From Flavipsychrobacter sp. (lineage in GTDB: Bacteria; Bacteroidota; Bacteroidia; Chitinophagales; Chitinophagaceae), in assembly GCA_025963465.1 (NCBI GenBank), contig JAOQAP010000092.1:1-64000 (forward strand): a stretch of 64,000 nucleotides of DNA, read 5' to 3'. Below the pieces are notes generated by a model. It made no database searches, was not told where the DNA came from, and saw only the letters and a list, made by a program, of their open reading frames with translations. Within the stretch, counting starts at the first letter, position 1; each line of letters opens with the position of its first letter. A program made the translations under genes and the position numbers. Shown here one piece after another: positions 3,787 through 58,529 of the stretch.

Positions 3787-5133
3787 ATGAAATACACTAC
3801 ACAATTCTTACTAATGCTTTTACTGTGCTCAGGCACGTTCTTCCTGCCATCATGCAGTGAAAAGAAAGAAGAAGTACCGGCACTGCTGGAAAGAAAGAAG
3901 CCGATAGGCCCGGATGAAGAAAAGGCGGCAATTAGAAAAACATATGATAAAGCGCTGGAGGCAGTGAAAAAAGACCCGGATGACCTGAAGCAATATATAG
4001 CGCTGGCAACAGCGTTTATATCTGAAGGCCGTGTGACGGGCAACAATGGTTACTACAGCAATGCAGCAGTGCAGATGCTGGACAAAGTGACCACAAAGAC
4101 AACTGCAAATAAGGACCTTGTATTCCAGGCACTGAGCCTTAAATCTGCAGTGCTGCTGAATATGCACCAGTTCAAAGAGGCTGCAGAGACTGCAAAACAG
4201 GGAGTGGCACTCAATGACTTTAACGCCGGTATATATGGTGCGCTGGTAGATGCGAATGTAGAACTGGGCAACTATAAAGAAGCGGTAGCCGACTGCGACA
4301 AGATGATGAGCATACGCCCGGACCTGCGCTCTTATTCACGTGCGTCTTACCTGCGGCAGATATATGGCCAGAACAGCGGCTCTATAGAAGCGATGAAACT
4401 GGCGGTGGGCGCGGGCATGCCCGGCGCAGAAAATACAGAATGGGCAAGGACCACGCTTGCAGACCTGTACCTGAACAACGGTAATGCAGACAGTGCAGCG
4501 CTATTGTATCGTGAGTCGTTGGTGTACCGTCCTAATTATCCTTTTGCCATGATAGGTATGGCTAGGGTAGGGAAGGCCAGGAAAAATTATGACACAGCGA
4601 TCGCCTATACTAAGAATGCAATAGGCGTATTGAGCGAGGCAGCATTTGTATCACTGCTGGCTGACCTGTATGAACTGAAAGGCGATGCTGCAAAAGCAAA
4701 AGAGACACGCAATGATGTAGTAGGCCTGCTGGAAGAAGGGCAGAAAGAAGAACCTAAGGATGCGGCTGTAAAGCACAACGTAAGCCGCGAAATGGCGACT
4801 GCCTACCTGAATGCCGGCAACCTGGACAAAGCGCTGCCATATGCACAGACTGACCTGGAAATGCGCCCGGAAAATATAGATGCCAACGAGCTGGTAGCAT
4901 GGATATACTACCTGAAAGGCGACTATACAAATGCCAAAATACATGCTGATAAGATGCTGGCAACTAATACGAAAAATGCTAACAAGTTATATGAAGCGGG
5001 AGCCATCTATGCCAGTGCAGGAGATATGACCAAGGGAAATGAGCTGATGGCGGAGGCTACGAAAGTAAGCCCGTACATTGATCAAAGAATCATTAACCAG
5101 ACAAGAAGTGCGCTGGTAATGCAAAAACAATAA
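3787..5133 (+). CDS. TPR-repeat lipoprotein
   Basis: ATG at 3787 gives lipoprotein signal MKYTTQFLLMLLLCSGTFFLPSCSEKKEE (track start 3733 is a TTG). TPR-like helical repeats (KEAAETAKQGVALNDFNAGIYGALVDANVELGNYKEAVADCDKM). Confidence 0.8.
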   Translation: MKYTTQFLLMLLLCSGTFFLPSCSEKKEEVPALLERKKPIGPDEEKAAIRKTYDKALEAVKKDPDDLKQYIALATAFISEGRVTGNNGYYSNAAVQMLDKVTTKTTANKDLVFQALSLKSAVLLNMHQFKEAAETAKQGVALNDFNAGIYGALVDANVELGNYKEAVADCDKMMSIRPDLRSYSRASYLRQIYGQNSGSIEAMKLAVGAGMPGAENTEWARTTLADLYLNNGNADSAALLYRESLVYRPNYPFAMIGMARVGKARKNYDTAIAYTKNAIGVLSEAAFVSLLADLYELKGDAAKAKETRNDVVGLLEEGQKEEPKDAAVKHNVSREMATAYLNAGNLDKALPYAQTDLEMRPENIDANELVAWIYYLKGDYTNAKIHADKMLATNTKNANKLYEAGAIYASAGDMTKGNELMAEATKVSPYIDQRIINQTRSALVMQKQ

Positions 5134-5208
5134 TATAGATAACTATTAAAACTGCCACCGGCTGAAATTGTATAAAGCCGAATCAAGAATTTTGTGTGGT
5201 TTGAAAAA

Positions 5209-5246
5209 TGCCCCTCCGCATTGTCTAATGTACGAGGGGCCTTTTT
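5209..5246 (+). terminator. Rho-independent terminator
   Basis: gcccctc...gaggggc stem followed by a T-run. Confidence 0.75.
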
Positions 5247-5283
5247 ATGCAATAAATAAGTAAATTTGTGAAAAGGACACTTT

Positions 5284-5523
5284 ATGAAAGGAATTAGTTT
5301 TGTAACAGATGAAACTCATAACAGGCGATACGCTCAAATTGATTTGAAAGGTATCGCGAAATATGATGATGATGCACTTGAGGATCTAATGGATATTCTT
5401 ATTGCAGAAGCAAGGAAGGATGAAAAAAGCGTTCCCTGGGAAAGCGTAAAATCAGAATTAATACAAGAAGGGAAGATCAATGTACCAAATCGTCGTAAAA
5501 CCGTCAGCAAAAAGAGAGCTTAA
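5284..5523 (+). CDS. Putative type II antitoxin (RelB-like position)
   Basis: 79 aa acidic/basic protein overlapping a RelE-like gene by 44 nt. Confidence 0.6.
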   Translation: MKGISFVTDETHNRRYAQIDLKGIAKYDDDALEDLMDILIAEARKDEKSVPWESVKSELIQEGKINVPNRRKTVSKKRA

Positions 5524-5737
5524 GAAATTATCCGTTTCTGTTGCGACATTAATCGTGAATAAAATAGATACACTTGCTAATAATCCTCGTCCTGAAGGGT
5601 GCAAGAAGCTCGTTAATAATAAAGAAGAATTATGGAGAGTGCGTGTTGGCGACTATCGCATATTATACGCTATTGATGATACCATAAGAATAGTAGACAT
5701 TCATCATGTAGGAAATAGAAGGGAGATATATAAATAG
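5480..5737 (+). CDS. RelE/ParE family toxin
   Basis: MYQIVVKPSAKRELKKLS...NNPRPEGCKKLVNNKEELWRVRVGDYRILYAIDDTIRIVDIHHVGNRREIYK, classic RelE-fold sequence. Confidence 0.9.
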   Translation: MYQIVVKPSAKRELKKLSVSVATLIVNKIDTLANNPRPEGCKKLVNNKEELWRVRVGDYRILYAIDDTIRIVDIHHVGNRREIYK

Positions 5738-5764
5738 GGTGTAAAAACAGAACATACTTTTCTT

Positions 5765-6943
5765 CTAATCCGCTGATACAAACATTTCAGCGGCTATCCG
5801 GTCTGCAAATAATTTTCCTTCATTGGTCAGTACCAGTTTCCTTCCTTCTTGTGTTAGCCATTTCTTCTCGCGGCAGAGGTGACTGCTTTTTTCTACCATA
5901 GTGGCGCATGTATCATCCCATTCCCGGGCTATTTTATCCAGGTCGCAACCCCACATGGTACGCAGGGAGGTCATAATATATTCGTTGAGGTGCTCTATTG
6001 CCGTTAGCTTTTCTTCTTCGTGAGGAACAGTGTGCTCCTGTAATATGTTCTTTGCATACAGGGCATTGTTGGCTACATTCCACCTGCGGGTAGCACCATC
6101 AAATGAATGAGCCGACGGGCCTATGCCCAGGTAGTGCATGCCCCGCCAGTAATTGGTATTGTGTATGGCATGGTGGCCGGGACGGGCAAGATTGGATATT
6201 TCGTAATGATCATAACCCATAGCAGCAGCCTGCTCCATCAGTATTTCGAATTGCCCTGCAGCCTGTTCCGGGTCTACGGGTACTGCTTTTTTCTTTTGTA
6301 TGGCCTGCTGCAGGGCGGTCTTATCTTCTACAGTAAGGGCGTAAGAGGAGAAGTGGGGTATGCCCAGCTCTGTAACTTTTGCCAGGTTTTGTTTCCATGC
6401 TGCATCGGTAAGTCCGGGAGTACCATATATAAGGTCTATGCTCAGATTGGTAAACCCGGCATCCTGGGCGGTCTTTATTGCATAATCTGCTTCCTGTGCA
6501 TTGTGTGCCCGTTTCATATACAACAGGTCTTCTTCCCTGAAAGATTGTACGCCGATACTAAACCTATTGATGGGGGTGCTACGCAATGACTTCAGGTAAT
6601 TCTTGTCCAGGTCATCGGGGTTTGCCTCGAGGGTAAACTCTTTGATATGGTCGACGGGGTGGTATTTAAGTATGGTATCGAAAATCAGGTTTATTTCATC
6701 TGCTGAGAGAAGTGACGGGGTGCCACCTCCCAGGTACACGGTTTCTACCGTAGTGCCTTGCAGGTATTCCCGTCGCATTTCTATCTCCTTCAATATCGCC
6801 TGCAGCACCTCGTCCTTACCCCTCAACGAGGTGGAAAAGTGAAAATTGCAATAGACACATGCCTGCTTACAAAAGGGAATATGCAGGTATATGCCTGCCG
6901 CATTGGGGGTGTTCGGGTGGTTTTTGGGAGTATCCTGGGGCAT
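5765..6943 (-). CDS. hemW: Radical SAM family heme chaperone HemW
   Basis: GIYLHIPFCKQACVYCNFHF (CxxxCxxC) and VETVYLGGGTPSLL. Start MPQDTPKN at 6943; the longer ORF reaches 6967. Confidence 0.9.
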   Translation of the reverse strand: MPQDTPKNHPNTPNAAGIYLHIPFCKQACVYCNFHFSTSLRGKDEVLQAILKEIEMRREYLQGTTVETVYLGGGTPSLLSADEINLIFDTILKYHPVDHIKEFTLEANPDDLDKNYLKSLRSTPINRFSIGVQSFREEDLLYMKRAHNAQEADYAIKTAQDAGFTNLSIDLIYGTPGLTDAAWKQNLAKVTELGIPHFSSYALTVEDKTALQQAIQKKKAVPVDPEQAAGQFEILMEQAAAMGYDHYEISNLARPGHHAIHNTNYWRGMHYLGIGPSAHSFDGATRRWNVANNALYAKNILQEHTVPHEEEKLTAIEHLNEYIMTSLRTMWGCDLDKIAREWDDTCATMVEKSSHLCREKKWLTQEGRKLVLTNEGKLFADRIAAEMFVSAD

Positions 6944-7047
6944 TATTTTGTAAAGATACGGATACAAATTCAGGTGTAAACAGGCTTAAATACAGTCACT
7001 TTAGATAATTTTAACAACCTTTCTGCTCAACCTATGTAAAAAAGCGT

Positions 7048-7055
7048 TACATTTG
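7048..7055 (+). promoter_or_regulatory. Bacteroidetes-type -7 element (TACATTTG)
   Basis: TAnnTTTG match about 50 nt upstream of the ATG at 7106. Confidence 0.45.
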
Positions 7056-7105
7056 CAGCCCCGTATTACTTTTTTAATCCCCTATCGGATAAAACAGTGT
7101 AGCGT

Positions 7106-24230: not shown

Positions 24231-24863
24231 TTATATAAATTTATTGTCCTTCGCTGCTTTTATTGCGTCAGCTTTAGAGTGTACATTCAGTTTGTGGTAA
24301 ATGTTCTTGATGTGCGATTTTACAGTCTCGAGGTCTATGTATAGCTCTTCCGCTATGCGCTTGCGGCTTTTGCCGGTCGCTATCTGTTCCAGTATTTCTG
24401 TTTCCCTGCGGGTAAGTGGGGTAGATTCATTCCTTTTGAAAGATGAAATGACCATACGGGCTATGTGAGCGCTCATAGGGCCGCCACCATCCATTACTTC
24501 GTGTATAGCAGCAACTATTTTTTCGGGTGGAGTATTCTTGGTCAGGTAGCCCGCGGCGCCATTACCCAGCGCTCTGAATATGAGCATCTCCTGTTCGTAA
24601 ACAGTCAGTATCAGTATATGCGTTTCAGGCAGTAGCTTTTTTAGTTTTGGCAATGCCTCTATACCGGATATGCCCGGGAGCTCTACGTCCAGCAGCAGAA
24701 CATCCGGATCATCGTGTGCTATCTTTTTCAGCGCTTCTTCGCAGGATGGGTAGGTGCCTGCTATCTTATACCCCGGAGTATTGCCGATCAGGAAAGCATA
24801 GCCCTCCCGTATGGTCTCGTCGTCTTCTATTATTGCTACACGTATATCCAGGTCACGTTTCAT
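24231..24863 (-). CDS. LuxR/NarL-type response regulator
   Basis: Receiver (IEDDETIREG, DVLLLDVELPGISGIEAL) and LuxR HTH (LTRRETEILEQIATGKSRKRIAEELYIDLETVKSHIKNIYHKL). Confidence 0.93.
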   Translation of the reverse strand: MKRDLDIRVAIIEDDETIREGYAFLIGNTPGYKIAGTYPSCEEALKKIAHDDPDVLLLDVELPGISGIEALPKLKKLLPETHILILTVYEQEMLIFRALGNGAAGYLTKNTPPEKIVAAIHEVMDGGGPMSAHIARMVISSFKRNESTPLTRRETEILEQIATGKSRKRIAEELYIDLETVKSHIKNIYHKLNVHSKADAIKAAKDNKFI

Positions 24864-24909
24864 GCTCTTGATGTTTACGTAAAGTTCCTGAATATTTCTT
24901 AACGGAACA

Positions 24910-27903
24910 TCACCTGTTTAGCGGTATTTTAAAGGTGAGATTGATGATCGTACCCTTATTTTTTCTCGAATCTATATACAGCTTGCCATGAAGGCGTTCT
25001 GCCCGTATGTCCATATTATTCAGGCCATTACCGCGTTTTACGGTCTGCTGGTCAAACCCTTCGCCATTATCTTTCAACACCAGTTGCAATACGTTCCTGT
25101 TCCGCAGGCTTACTTCTAGCGATACATTGGTAGCCTTGGAGTATTTAAGAGTATTGTTCAGCGCTTCTTTGAATATCATGATGAGGTTGCGGCTGGTATC
25201 CATAGGCAGGCGGTAATTACGCCATTTCTCATCTGTTCCTTTGAACGCAAAATTAACTTCAGTATCCTGGAACAATTCATTGCCGAAGTCCCTGATGCGG
25301 TGCAGGATCTCGTACAGGTTGTCATTAGACGGCTTCAAAGACCACAGTATATCCCTTGTGCCGCTGTATAGCTGGGCAGTATTATCTTCTATCTGCCCCA
25401 ATATTCTTACAGAGTCCGGTGTAACAGGTAGTTTCTTTTTCAGCACGCTGGTCAGCACATTGATGCGGGTCAGCTTATTGCCTATCTCATCATGAAAGTC
25501 TTCCGCGGTGCGCATTCTTATCTTGCCCTGCTCTTCTGAACGAAGCTTCGATAATAGTTTTGCTCTCCTTTGTTTCCGGTTATTGTACAGGTACTGCACC
25601 AGTATGCCCAGCAGTATGCAGGCAGCCAGTATAGCATACTTGAACCATATGGTCTTATGGAAAGGGGTAATGATCTCAAATGCATAAGTAAGCTCGGGGT
25701 CAGCCTGTCCATCAGCGCCTTTGCATTGTACATGGAAAACATAATTGCCCGGAGGTAATGCAGAGTAGCTAACGGTATTTGTTGCTGACCAGTCGGACCA
25801 TGGTGTTTCCAGCCCGTCCATATGATAGCGATACAGCACCTGTTGCGCACCACTAAGGGTTATTGCCTGGAAGGTAAAGGAGATATTATTTTTCTGGTAG
25901 GGGAGGTGCAGGTGGTAGGGTATTCCATACCAGTTGTCTGTACTGTCATACCAGCTGCGTTCTATAGTGCTTTCCCCTGTCAGCTTCACAGATTGCATTA
26001 CAATGCTCCTTGGTGCAGAAGATACTACTGCTGTATGCGGCTGGTAATGCAGCGCACCATTGGTTGTGCCAAACCAGATGCCTCCATCAGGTAGTTTTAG
26101 TACAGAGTTCATATTGCTCTCCATACCCGATACGCCTTGTGTTTTGCCAAAGAAAGATACCTGCGGCTCATCTTTATCATTCATCCTTATTCTATGGATG
26201 CCAAAACCGGTGCCTGTCCATATATTACCCTCATTGTCAGCAACTATATTGTAGATAAAGTCTGAGCGCAGCCCGTTGCTTTTATTGATGACAAGCGATT
26301 TTCGCGTGTCCATATTATAACGGATAACACCATTGTCGCTTGTGCCCATCCATATGTTCCTGCCCTGCAATGCAAAACACTGCACCGAGAAACTATCAAT
26401 GGTCGAGTTGGTCTTGTAAGGTATAATGGTGCCTGCGGTGTATAGCTGCAGGTTGTTATCAGTCCTCAGTGATTTATCAGATGCTATCAGTATACTATCC
26501 CTTCCTATGGAAAGAAAAGATACTACAGCAATATCTTTTGCTATGGTTTTAAAAGTATCATTGTCCAGTATCATGGCTCCGCTGGCAAATCCTATCCACA
26601 ACCGGTTTTCGGGATCCTGGTACAGGCTGGTAATAAAATTTGACGGGAAGCCCCTATCCGGCGCTTCGTACTGTTTGAATGTTTGTTTTTGGTAGGTCCA
26701 TAACCCTCTGCCGCGAGTGCCTATCCATAGTTTGGAGTTATGGGTATAACACATTGATGTGATAGCAGGAACCGGGTTAGAAGGAAAGGACAGGGGGCTG
26801 ACCTTGCCGTCTTTGAATATGTAAAGTCCCGCGTCATATGTGCCCAGGAAAAGAGAATCTCTTTTGTTAGACGCAATGGCCATAACCTGCGCACTAGGCA
26901 GTCCCATTGTTTCGTCGAGCCCGGTAAACTGTGTGCCTGAATACCTGAATACCCCCTGCCCGTCTGAGGCCATCCATACGTTGCCCTCTGCATCGGTGAG
27001 CATTCCGAAAATGTAGTTGTCGCTAAGGCCATTATGCTTATTATAATACTGGCCATTATGGCCAGTCATTTTTATTACACCGCTGTTTGTGCCCAGCCAT
27101 AACGCACCTGCCCTGTCTTGTGCTATTGTAGATACGATAGGAGCAAGCGCCATCTCCTGTACGTTGATATAGTGTGGTAACAACCTGTTGCTATCAATTT
27201 TGTATAGTCCCTGGCTGGTGCATACCCATAACAGGCTATCCTTGTCCCTGAATACCTGAGATATATTCGGGCTTCTTTGTTCTAGGGGAAGCGTGAATCT
27301 CAGGGTGTCCCATTTATTATGTATGTAATGATAGAGCACCCCCTCTTTTGCTACCCACAACCCTTTATTTTCCACCATTATGGAAGATATTAATCCTGCG
27401 CGGCCGGGTGTTACAAAGTATTGGATCTTCCCTTTTGTTATATAGTACACATCGCCCTGTGCCCGCCACCAGACGGTATCATTCACAACGGCAATTTGCT
27501 GTGTGTTGAATACACCACGCAGGCTTTGCTGCTGTAGTGTGAAGTGAGCAAAAGACTTACCATTGAACCTGGATATCCCGGTTGGGCCGCCTATCCATAT
27601 GTTGCCTTCGGCATCTGTTGCTACGGCCCTTACCTGGTTATTCAGCAGGCCGTTCCTTACGGTGAAGTTGGTAATGTTCCTGCCGTCATAGCGGCTTAGC
27701 CCGCCAAGGGTTCCTATCCATAAGTTGCCACTGTTGTCCTGAGCAATGCAGGTAGCCTGCGATTGTATCAGGCCGTCATCCACGCTCAGGTTATGAAAAG
27801 GATAGCGCTGGGCATAAGCGGTAGTAAACAACACAGACAGCATTACTGTTACTATGCATCGTACATTATAGTGTTTTACCCGTCTGTGCTCCTTGCTCTT
27901 CAT
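24910..27903 (-). CDS. Two-component sensor histidine kinase with N-terminal regulator propeller and Y_Y_Y domain (HisKA_3-like)
   Basis: Repeated NLWIGT.GGLSRYDG.../NIWIGGPTGISRFNG; YRYHMDGLETPWSDW...; TM; AEDFHDEIGNKLTRINVLT; GNGLNNMDIRAERLHG. Confidence 0.92.
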   Translation of the reverse strand: MKSKEHRRVKHYNVRCIVTVMLSVLFTTAYAQRYPFHNLSVDDGLIQSQATCIAQDNSGNLWIGTLGGLSRYDGRNITNFTVRNGLLNNQVRAVATDAEGNIWIGGPTGISRFNGKSFAHFTLQQQSLRGVFNTQQIAVVNDTVWWRAQGDVYYITKGKIQYFVTPGRAGLISSIMVENKGLWVAKEGVLYHYIHNKWDTLRFTLPLEQRSPNISQVFRDKDSLLWVCTSQGLYKIDSNRLLPHYINVQEMALAPIVSTIAQDRAGALWLGTNSGVIKMTGHNGQYYNKHNGLSDNYIFGMLTDAEGNVWMASDGQGVFRYSGTQFTGLDETMGLPSAQVMAIASNKRDSLFLGTYDAGLYIFKDGKVSPLSFPSNPVPAITSMCYTHNSKLWIGTRGRGLWTYQKQTFKQYEAPDRGFPSNFITSLYQDPENRLWIGFASGAMILDNDTFKTIAKDIAVVSFLSIGRDSILIASDKSLRTDNNLQLYTAGTIIPYKTNSTIDSFSVQCFALQGRNIWMGTSDNGVIRYNMDTRKSLVINKSNGLRSDFIYNIVADNEGNIWTGTGFGIHRIRMNDKDEPQVSFFGKTQGVSGMESNMNSVLKLPDGGIWFGTTNGALHYQPHTAVVSSAPRSIVMQSVKLTGESTIERSWYDSTDNWYGIPYHLHLPYQKNNISFTFQAITLSGAQQVLYRYHMDGLETPWSDWSATNTVSYSALPPGNYVFHVQCKGADGQADPELTYAFEIITPFHKTIWFKYAILAACILLGILVQYLYNNRKQRRAKLLSKLRSEEQGKIRMRTAEDFHDEIGNKLTRINVLTSVLKKKLPVTPDSVRILGQIEDNTAQLYSGTRDILWSLKPSNDNLYEILHRIRDFGNELFQDTEVNFAFKGTDEKWRNYRLPMDTSRNLIMIFKEALNNTLKYSKATNVSLEVSLRNRNVLQLVLKDNGEGFDQQTVKRGNGLNNMDIRAERLHGKLYIDSRKNKGTIINLTFKIPLNR

Positions 27904-38986: not shown

Positions 38987-40708
38987 TTACGATTCAGTAC
39001 GTTCCTCATCCTTTCCGTAGCGGAGCTTGTTCTCCTTAATGATAACATCCTTCACCACCTTGTCCAGTTTGTCTGTTACTACAGCAAGGCCTTCTATTAC
39101 TTCTTTGTTTACAGGGTCTGCCGGGTCTTCAAAGTTGAATAGCTGTATCAGTCCTAATATAGTGGCTATTGGCCCTCTCACATGGTGTGCCTGTGTATGT
39201 GCTATGTCGCTGAGCACATTGCTTTGTGCTTCTATATGCGCCAGGTGGCTTTTCTTCTCACGGGATAGGAGCTCGTTGTACTTCTTTTGTATGTTGTAGT
39301 TCCTGTAAATGAAGAAAGCCAGCGCTACGACCAGCAACAACCCTGCAAAACCTGTATAGGTAAATCGTTTTTGACGATCAATTGTACTGTCGTATATACG
39401 GGCCTGTGAAAGACTGTCGATCTCCTGCTTTTTCTTAAATTCAAACTCCAGGGAGTTCTTGGTAAATTCATTCTCTTTGTCAATGTTGTAGAGGCTGTCA
39501 CGGGTTGAAATGAAGTGTTCGTAAGCATCGAGACCCTCCATATGTTTACCACTGCTCTTGTATGCTTTATACAGTGCAAACCATGCATTCTTTTCGTCGT
39601 CAAGGTCCCTGTTTGTCTGGGCTATGCTCAGTGCTTTCTGTAGTGAAGGAATGGCCAGGTCATACATGTTTTGTTTTATGTAGATATTGCCCAGCGTAAT
39701 GTATGATTTAGGTAAAAGGTCTACATAGCTTTGGTCTTCTGCAAGACGTAATGAAGTATCGGAGTAGGCAAGTGCCTTAGGATAAACATAAGTATCGAGA
39801 TAGGTGTTGGCCAGTTCGTCAAGTATCTTTACCTCTTCCCTGAATTCGTTTATTTCGCGGCATTTGAACAGTGCCAGTTGGTAATTCTCAATTGCTTTCT
39901 GGTAATTATGTTTTAGTTTGAATGTTTTACCAAATCCTGTAAGGCTGGCTATCTGGAAGTAAATGTCTTTTATGGAAACGGTAAGCTTCCATACTTTTTC
40001 ATAGTATTCGTAAGCCTTGTCCGGGTTAGACATGGTAAGGTATATATCACCTATGTTCAGCAGTAAGCCGGCTCTCTGCAGTGTATCCTGTATATCTCTT
40101 CCATGCTTTGAGTTGGCAAAAGAATCCAGTTTATTCAATGATATTTTGTAGGAAATAAGTGCATTGTTGTAATCCCCTATGATCTTCCATACAACGCCCT
40201 CATCTGCCAGTACGCCAATCTGCATGTTAATATCGGGTCGTAATGCCAGCACCTTATTGTAGTATTCCAACGCCTTTGTGTGCTGAGATAGTTTCTGGTA
40301 AAATTTTGCTATTGTTTCTAATGCGATAGACTCGTTGAGCGTATCATTAAATTTTTGTGCAAGCGTTACGTTCTCTCCTAAAGCCGCAAAAGCTTTAGGG
40401 TAGTTCTTCATACAGGTAAAGTAGATATCACCTATCTTTCTATTGGCCTTATAAAGGCCGTCATGCCAATTGATCTTTTCTGCGAGCTTCTTCGCTTCAT
40501 TCGCTATGATTATCTTGTTGTTAGAATCTTCACAGTATATGACGGCTGCCATATCTATGAATGCCTTTACCTGCCCTGTGTCGCTTGATAGCTGATGTAC
40601 CAGGGACTTAATAGAATCAACATTAAACCGTTCAGATTGGGCAGAAAGATCGAAGGAGATGACAATAAAACTAAATAAAGCAATAAAGTATCTGTAACTG
40701 GTCTTCAT
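38987..40708 (-). CDS. TPR-repeat sensor with TM helix and C-terminal DHp-like module, no HATPase domain
   Basis: Signal peptide, TPRs (SESIALETIAKFYQKLSQHTKALEYYNKVLAL), TM FTYTGFAGLLLVVALAFFIYR, then SDIAHTQAHHVRGPIATILGLIQLFNFEDPADPVNKEVIEG...; stops ~35 aa later. Confidence 0.85.
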   Translation of the reverse strand: MKTSYRYFIALFSFIVISFDLSAQSERFNVDSIKSLVHQLSSDTGQVKAFIDMAAVIYCEDSNNKIIIANEAKKLAEKINWHDGLYKANRKIGDIYFTCMKNYPKAFAALGENVTLAQKFNDTLNESIALETIAKFYQKLSQHTKALEYYNKVLALRPDINMQIGVLADEGVVWKIIGDYNNALISYKISLNKLDSFANSKHGRDIQDTLQRAGLLLNIGDIYLTMSNPDKAYEYYEKVWKLTVSIKDIYFQIASLTGFGKTFKLKHNYQKAIENYQLALFKCREINEFREEVKILDELANTYLDTYVYPKALAYSDTSLRLAEDQSYVDLLPKSYITLGNIYIKQNMYDLAIPSLQKALSIAQTNRDLDDEKNAWFALYKAYKSSGKHMEGLDAYEHFISTRDSLYNIDKENEFTKNSLEFEFKKKQEIDSLSQARIYDSTIDRQKRFTYTGFAGLLLVVALAFFIYRNYNIQKKYNELLSREKKSHLAHIEAQSNVLSDIAHTQAHHVRGPIATILGLIQLFNFEDPADPVNKEVIEGLAVVTDKLDKVVKDVIIKENKLRYGKDEERTES

Positions 40709-56810: not shown

Positions 56811-57443
56811 ATGACCGACAAAACCAGTGATGCAGATAAAAAGATTACTGATGAGTACAACCTGCGTACACTCATTAATAATATAGATGACCCCATATGG
56901 CTGGTGGATGCAGACTATATTATTATTGAGTGCAATATTGCGTTTGGTAAATGGGTGCACTGTTTTATAGGTACAACACTCACCAACGGTGACCATGTAT
57001 TGCATAACGGACAGAATAAGGCATACCAGGAAAAGTTTGAAATGTGCTACCAGCTGGCATTGAGCGGACGGTCGTTCCAGACGGTAGAAGACATGCAGGT
57101 TGGCAAGGACACAAGATATACCAGTGTGACCTTTAAGCCTGTTTATGAAAATGATAAGGTGGTAAGGGTAAGCTGTTATGCAAGGGATATTACAGAACAA
57201 CGAAAACACCTGCTGAAAATAGAGGAACAAAATACTGCACTAAGGGAAATAGCATTTATAGAATCGCATAAGGTGCGTGGCCCGGTTACTACCATTATGG
57301 GGTTGGAGCAATTGTTTAATCACGAAGACTTCACCGATCCTATCAATAAAATAATCGTTGAAGGCATATCGAGAACTACTAAAGACCTGGACCTGATAGT
57401 GAGAGAGGTGGTACTGAAATCAAATGCAATCGACAAGACTTAA
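56811..57443 (+). CDS. PAS-domain protein with C-terminal DHp-like module, no HATPase domain
   Basis: LINNIDDPIWLVDADYIIIECN...SCYARDITEQRKH then LREIAFIESHKVRGPVTTIMGLEQLFNHEDFTDPINKIIVEG; ends ~30 aa later. Confidence 0.85.
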   Translation: MTDKTSDADKKITDEYNLRTLINNIDDPIWLVDADYIIIECNIAFGKWVHCFIGTTLTNGDHVLHNGQNKAYQEKFEMCYQLALSGRSFQTVEDMQVGKDTRYTSVTFKPVYENDKVVRVSCYARDITEQRKHLLKIEEQNTALREIAFIESHKVRGPVTTIMGLEQLFNHEDFTDPINKIIVEGISRTTKDLDLIVREVVLKSNAIDKT

Positions 57444-57446
57444 GCT

Positions 57447-58529
57447 TTATCGGACTATCTGCACATAACCGCTAAAAGTGCCAGACGTAATACGAGCCAA
57501 ATAAGTACCCGAGGGAAATAGGCGAATGTCAAGTTCACGACTGTTTATAAAAGTACCTGTTTTCTTTCCCTGCATATCATACACCTGCACAATAAAATTT
57601 GTCCAGCCTTTCGGCAAAGATAATTTAACGATACCATCTGCGGAGGGATTGGGGTAAACACTAATGGTGCTGTTTGCACGTGTTGCATTATGGACGGCCG
57701 CACTGGTGTCTACAGGTGGCGGTGGCGGCGGTGTAGCCGTATCAATGAATTTATCGCGGTAGCGAATGCTGGTTATTGTTTCTGTGCTGCCTGTCACTAT
57801 ACTTGTTACCCATAGCAGGGGGTAGTGTTCACCATTAGCCAGCCATTTATACTCCACTGTATTACGCGGAACGGGTGCAAAGCCGGTAGTACCTATAGTA
57901 ACAGAATCCATTTCAAATATTTGTGACCTTACCCTTATGCATGCTGTAGAGGAAGCCAGGAAAGGAGTAAGAATGGTACCCCAGGCGTCTACCCGCGTGC
58001 TTCTATAGCCTGTCTGCAATATGCTGCCCACGCCGGGCAGGTCTACATTTAGCTCATAGGCATCACTGTCTGTGCGCAGGTATGATAGCGGGAAATGATA
58101 CCATACATCAGGCAATGCGTAATTGGCCGGAGTTGGGGTGCCTGTTACTTCCCCGGCAAAAGCCTGTGCTATAAAGCTATCTGTAGTGTTCTGAAAAAAC
58201 GTGTATGTATTGTATACAGGCAATACCCCGGGGATAGTATCTGCAACCTTATAGCCATATGCGCCGGCATCTATAATAGTACCGTAAGATGAATTTACTG
58301 CTGTAGCTGTTTTAAAGGTATCAACGCCCTGCGATATAGAGGTAAGTGCGTAGTGCCATGTCATGCTTAATCCGCTATCTCCCGGGTTGATGTGGGTAGC
58401 GGGAGAAGCATTGCTATACCGTAATGTGTCGCCCAATACCGGCATGTCGGCAGATGTGATGACCACCATCTGCGAAAAAGCAGGCCGGCAGCAAAGCAAC
58501 AAGGCAAATAAGGGTAACAGGCAACGCAT
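57447..58529 (-). CDS. Secreted protein with T9SS C-terminal sorting domain
   Basis: Signal peptide MRCLLPLFALLLCCRPAFSQ; C-term ISVYPNPSADGIVKLSLPKGWTNFIVQVYDMQGKKTGTF...GTYLARI. Confidence 0.82.
   Translation of the reverse strand: MRCLLPLFALLLCCRPAFSQMVVITSADMPVLGDTLRYSNASPATHINPGDSGLSMTWHYALTSISQGVDTFKTATAVNSSYGTIIDAGAYGYKVADTIPGVLPVYNTYTFFQNTTDSFIAQAFAGEVTGTPTPANYALPDVWYHFPLSYLRTDSDAYELNVDLPGVGSILQTGYRSTRVDAWGTILTPFLASSTACIRVRSQIFEMDSVTIGTTGFAPVPRNTVEYKWLANGEHYPLLWVTSIVTGSTETITSIRYRDKFIDTATPPPPPPVDTSAAVHNATRANSTISVYPNPSADGIVKLSLPKGWTNFIVQVYDMQGKKTGTFINSRELDIRLFPSGTYLARITSGTFSGYVQIVR

Follow-up and report, generated by a model that had tools for sequence, protein, structure and literature searches.

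The 210-residue protein encoded at 56811–57443 ends in a ~70-aa HisKA-like DHp helical hairpin without the ATPase half, and this module represents a distinct, large, old and strongly conserved Bacteroidota-wide family rather than damage. We consider it on balance probable that the module acts between receivers as a sensor-gated histidine phosphotransferase and is a HisKA-type DHp domain whose ATPase domain was lost long ago. The kind of protein, a DHp phosphotransferase, is already known; what is new is a large ATPase-free, sensor-fused version of it in one phylum. The window, meaning the whole 64,000-nucleotide stretch of DNA analysed here, is part of contig C35 of a 4.18 Mb genome and encodes two such proteins, P0001 and P0002, with the following features.

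56811–57443, + strand: P0001, a PAS plus DHp-only protein of 210 aa (ORF translation, Pfam)
56877–57203, + strand: PAS domain of P0001, residues 23–131 (Pfam PAS_4, 30.5 bits against a cut-off of 23.1; PAS fold in the AF2 model)
57216–57425, + strand: DHp-only module of P0001, residues 136–205, a helical hairpin, with the end of the protein 5 aa further on
57267–57269, + strand: predicted phospho-acceptor His153 of P0001 in the H-box HKVRGP (alignments; His in 110/110 members)
57390–57392, + strand: Asp194 of P0001, in the conserved "LD" of helix 2 (Asp in 109/110 members)
57447–58529, − strand: convergent gene with a type IX secretion-like C-terminus, tail-to-tail with P0001 with 3 bp between the stops
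38987–40708, − strand: P0002, a TPR plus TM plus DHp-only protein of 573 aa
39311–39367, − strand: predicted transmembrane helix of P0002 (hydropathy scan)
39029–39238, − strand: DHp-only module of P0002
39185–39187, − strand: predicted phospho-acceptor His508 of P0002 in the H-box HHVRGP (sequence and alignment)

The C-terminal blocks of the two window proteins align without gaps, with 31/64 residues identical (48%) and 47/64 similar (70.9 bits; E = 2e-23 as a single comparison). This alignment and the 56811–57443 product itself had been described in the original prediction, and both were reproduced as quoted. It was also right that both proteins stop soon after the block, but the 30–40 residues named there were too many, as the 70-aa block is followed by 5 residues in one window protein and 13 in the other. 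P0001 passes the Pfam cut-offs for PAS_4 and PAS, and P0002 gives TPRs. The HisKA scores of the two blocks are below threshold (15.4 bits for P0001 and 20.7 bits for P0002; cut-off 26.9), and neither Pfam nor NCBIfam has a family that reaches its cut-off over the module in the window proteins. We found no HATPase_c after the DHp of P0001 or P0002, and the HPt profile PF01627 matched neither protein, the Hpt matches of the genome lying elsewhere. Over its TPR part, P0002 shows similarity to the TPR region of the sensor kinase FimS (NF053520; 48 bits, far under the cut-off).

Orthologs of P0001 were found in 18 named genomes (loci L017–L033 and L035); they are full-length, 52–68% identical and have the same end point. 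The P0002 ortholog (L036) is 68% identical over 548 aa, and the same architecture occurs in distant relatives (L052, L060). In the 4-kb flanks of the P0001 orthologs, no receiver or kinase lies next to the gene. The convergent gene for a secreted protein is the one conserved neighbour, and about 15 species-level loci (L017–L031, L035) retain it tail-to-tail with a P0001 homolog. We regard this neighbour as conserved context and make no claim of a functional partnership with P0001.

The assignment to HisKA is supported at the family level, where 45 of 47 diverse members match PF00512 individually (best 1.8e-9) while the window copies alone stay sub-threshold. A profile of the module searched against the PDB matched DHp domains, namely those of 7n0e, ZraS (9jfj), 3a0r and RetS (6dk7). 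The AF2 monomer model of P0001 (mean pLDDT 89.8; helices at 128–154, 156–167 and 177–209) shows a PAS domain followed by a long helix with a break just past His153; a loop then leads into the second helix, which gives a DHp-like hairpin. The top Foldseek matches of this model were the LOV-histidine kinases 8a7h and 8a3u (E about 1e-8). Judged from the helix boundaries, Asp194 would lie approximately level with His153 in the hairpin.

Within its own genome, the P0001 block retrieved the P0002 copy (E = 1.2e-18) and a third copy at C259:10779–10991 (E = 2.2e-13), which has the architecture MASE11-PAS-module; the nearest HATPase-bearing kinase in the same search came well behind this set of three (1.2e-5). 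A more distant PAS-module protein is encoded on C246. Beside the third copy (L120, G000:C259) lie two single-receiver genes in a tail-to-tail arrangement (4819–7078), and the nearer of these encodes 109 aa and seems to miss the N-terminal third of the receiver.

A profile built from the three own-genome blocks was searched against 61 genomes of the same family group and against named genomes, and it found relatives in 21 of the 61 genomes and at 44 loci in the named ones. All but one of these 44 loci lie in records titled Bacteroidota; the exception (L044) comes from a record titled as an Azovibrio restrictus MAG and is probably a misbinned contig. A profile made from 47 diverse members matched 74/297 genomes across the phylum, some HATPase-bearing kinases included, in a systematic sampling that covered Bacteroidota only. 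Plasmid searches with P0001 and with one of the REC-PAS-module hub proteins described below returned mostly PAS or receiver matches and one real member, on a plasmid of Emticicia, likewise of the Bacteroidota. At a separate locus (L171, 1–4827), the frame of a multi-PAS kinase stops after the DHp and a 136-aa HATPase follows in the same frame past one stop codon, which would fit a kinase split in two, a sequencing error or recoding of the stop codon.

In 110 distinct members, the module is always C-terminal, the protein ends within about 45 aa of it and HATPase never follows; strong profile matches lay at the very C-terminus wherever the frame was readable. The N-terminal inputs fused to the module comprise PAS, TPR-TM, MASE11-PAS, multi-TM, multi-PAS/GAF, REC-PAS and REC alone. 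The original prediction that one ATPase-less module is joined to different sensory inputs is borne out. In a tree of 141 DHp domains, in which single forks are weak because of the few alignment columns, the label "followed by HATPase" requires 3 changes compared with 43.7 in shuffled labels. The module thus separates from the HATPase-bearing HisKA domains on the tree, and its members are not truncated kinases, a possibility that had been raised at the outset. Between close orthologs, dN/dS was 0.024–0.047 for the module and 0.039–0.071 for the PAS domain, with the module lower in each comparable pair. The module is under strong purifying selection.

The gene neighbourhoods of the family connect the module to receivers. 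In neighbourhoods from 20 other genomes, we observed a repeated layout of a complete kinase, a first single-receiver protein (RR1, 144–178 aa), a hub protein REC-PAS-module of about 340 aa, and a second single-receiver protein (RR2, 127–150 aa), whose genes overlap or nearly touch. The complete, HATPase-bearing kinase lies upstream of the hub in most of these operons, and the hub is once a REC-module protein without a PAS domain between (L170). A second hub search in 396 genomes gave more hubs flanked by these receivers, and shorter operons without a kinase contain a multi-PAS-module protein and an RR2 (L163, L164, L167). All three receiver types (RR1, hub REC and RR2) have an intact phospho-Asp and distinct signatures. 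Among 30 phylum-level module genes, picked by module score alone from profile-selected loci, 16 lie within 100 bp of a single-receiver gene on the same strand, compared with 4/129 other genes in the same regions. In some genomes (L210–L214, L216, L218–L220, L222), the hub slot is taken by a REC-PAS fused to a longer protein, and the two that were scanned are complete HisKA_2 or HisKA_3 kinases with REC-PAS, so that different types of transmitter seem to replace one another at a single locus. We rejected these slot proteins as HATPase-bearing homologs of the module because their match to the hub profile ends before the DHp.

This linkage is a property of the wider family and not of the window genes and their close relatives, for which it was seen at 0/43 loci (L017–L060) and at 1/28 family-level loci. 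In the window, no histidine kinase or receiver gene lies next to P0001 or P0002, and the only further two-component genes are a REC/HATPase pair at 24231–27903. The absence of an adjacent kinase or regulator, which had been noted before, therefore holds for both window genes and fails for the family. Since the partners of P0001 and P0002 are unlinked, we assign their function by homology to the receiver-linked members. The genome itself has orphan RR2-type receivers (two on C90 and one on C269). Single-domain receiver genes account for about 30 of its 77 receiver matches, many with low Pfam scores, and several of them are orphans.

The residues of the module are informative about its chemistry. 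When 110 ATPase-less and 67 HATPase-bearing domains were aligned on one profile, giving residue counts from profile-selected loci that are not phylogenetically independent, the H-box His was kept in 110/110 and 67/67, respectively, while D, E or N at the H+1 position was present in 67/67 HATPase-bearing domains and in 29/110 ATPase-less ones. The 81/110 without it include both window copies: H+1 is Lys in P0001, which lacks the kinase acid, and His in P0002, which lacks the autokinase acid or Asn. The Arg at +3 and the helix-2 Asp are each found in 109/110 ATPase-less members, and the H-box Pro is kept along with the His and Arg. At H+4, T or N occurs in 1/110 ATPase-less members, P0001 having Gly there in place of the phosphatase Thr/Asn, but this loss says little because 51/67 HATPase-bearing kinases here lack T/N as well. 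The helix-2 Asp is also found in complete kinases beside RR2-type receivers; in the own genome, complete kinases that have it adjoin such receivers in 5/9 cases compared with 2/27 (Fisher P = 0.006, a guide only as the sequences are related by descent).

In the HisKA kinases CrdS and HK853, kinase activity alone depends on the H+1 acid and phosphatase activity alone on the H+4 T/N; phosphatase-deficient CrdS mutants (N375A) perform phosphotransfer at near wild-type rates (PMC3510030). A module that keeps the His and has lost the H+1 acid is therefore as expected of a phosphotransferase, and the loss of the acid in most members with the His never lost is easier to reconcile with Asp-to-His transfer from a receiver than with phosphorylation by a foreign ATPase domain. 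For most members and both window copies, the residue signature argues against simple phosphorylation by the ATPase domain of another protein, while trans-phosphorylation by a kinase is possible for the members that keep D/E/N. The original prediction that partners supply kinase activity is thus supported only in part. A dispersed role in phosphotransfer is supported by the linkage to receivers in other genomes, and a pure scaffold network, offered as its alternative, is not well supported as the His is never lost.

In the phosphotransferase mechanism that we favour, two copies of the module would pair to form a four-helix bundle. Its His would take the phosphoryl group from a phosphorylated receiver, either a fused REC or a single-domain regulator that a true kinase has phosphorylated, and pass it to a second single-domain receiver of the RR2 type, with the attached PAS, TPR-TM or MASE11 part gating the relay. 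P0001 and P0002 may likewise use orphan receivers encoded elsewhere in their genome. We more tentatively extend this to the phylum, where sensor-fused, ATPase-free DHp phosphotransferases could well be the middle step of the kinase/RR1/REC-PAS-DHp/RR2 operons and the unlinked copies, both window ones included, could connect numerous sensory inputs to a common pool of single-domain receivers.

The same linkage may be read in other ways. The module might be a phosphatase, a sink or a sequestering partner that docks on RR2-type receivers and then drains or blocks them, tuned by the sensory part. Receiver linkage does predict docking, though not the direction of phosphate flow, and the DHp domain of EnvZ acts as a phosphatase when isolated. 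A further activity of PhyT is inhibition through binding to its regulator (PMC5898713). We nevertheless think this reading unlikely, because the H+4 Thr/Asn required in HisKA proteins (PMC3510030) is absent in 109/110 members, a point weakened by its absence in many full kinases here, and because a strictly conserved His is unnecessary for HisKA-type phosphatase activity. Pairing of the module with the DHp of complete kinases in RetS-GacS-style heterodimers, which would inhibit those kinases or lead to phosphorylation of the module in trans, appears to us quite improbable. The best PDB profile matches include the 7n0e DHp and RetS 6dk7, most relay operons have a complete kinase ahead of the hub, and an H+1 acid or Asn persists in a minority of members. 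However, most members, both window copies among them, lack the acid that a phospho-accepting helix needs for ATP-dependent phosphorylation, the two-gene operons consist of the module and a receiver with no kinase, and many members have no kinase nearby.

It is very improbable that the hairpin is a mere dimerisation tail of the sensory domain with a structural His. Other receptors dimerise through DHp-like coils, and the module is the C-terminal end in every member, but the receivers in its operons have an intact phospho-Asp, the H-box R and P are conserved with the His, and the helix-2 Asp is common to complete kinases beside the same RR2-type receivers. As to functionless truncated or decaying histidine kinases, the missing HATPase and the sub-threshold Pfam HisKA scores are what such proteins would show; we reject this explanation almost with certainty on account of the common end point within about 45 aa of the module, the invariant His, the few origins on the tree and dN/dS below 0.05.

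If the relay is true, the module would be a DHp phosphotransferase in minimal form, with no remnant of the ATPase; it would explain part of the many single-domain receivers in such genomes and would predict the residues that separate kinase from phosphotransferase function. One member with a public name is annotated only as "PAS domain S-box protein", and these proteins fall under the HisKA cut-off, so that annotation does not reveal this layer of the two-component wiring of Bacteroidota. The literature searched, which covered few subscription journals, held no description of HATPase-less HisKA or Bacteroidota relay proteins, and to our knowledge a Bacteroidota-wide family of ATPase-free, sensor-fused DHp phosphotransferases has not been described.

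Among known proteins, the "SHNLRAP" HisKA kinases of the own genome have a homologous DHp, the helix-2 Asp and RR2-type partner receivers, but have an HATPase_c domain and, at H+1, have kept Asn, Asp or Glu. The pseudokinases RetS and DivL resemble the module in having a HisKA-related DHp without autokinase activity, and the RetS DHp is among the PDB matches; unlike the module, they have retained the ATPase domain, and they work by binding to other kinases. Spo0B and ChpT both keep a degenerate ATPase-like domain, whereas the module has none and has its own sensory or receiver domains attached. In other respects, Spo0B of B. subtilis and ChpT of Caulobacter are alike to it, as kinase-related, DHp-type four-helix-bundle phosphotransferases in which a His shuttles phosphate between receivers, and ChpT has no autokinase activity (PMC3433190, PMC5231405). 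In the Pak-SdrG-PhyT-PhyR system of Sphingomonas, a kinase acts on a single-domain regulator, then a sensor-linked DHp phosphotransferase and a final regulator (PMC5898713). PhyT and PhyP differ from the module, PhyT having an HRxxN-type DHp and a degenerate ATPase where the module is HisKA-type, has no ATPase and faces a single-domain last receiver, yet the order of this system is that of the relay operons seen here and provides a precedent for their topology (PMC5898713).
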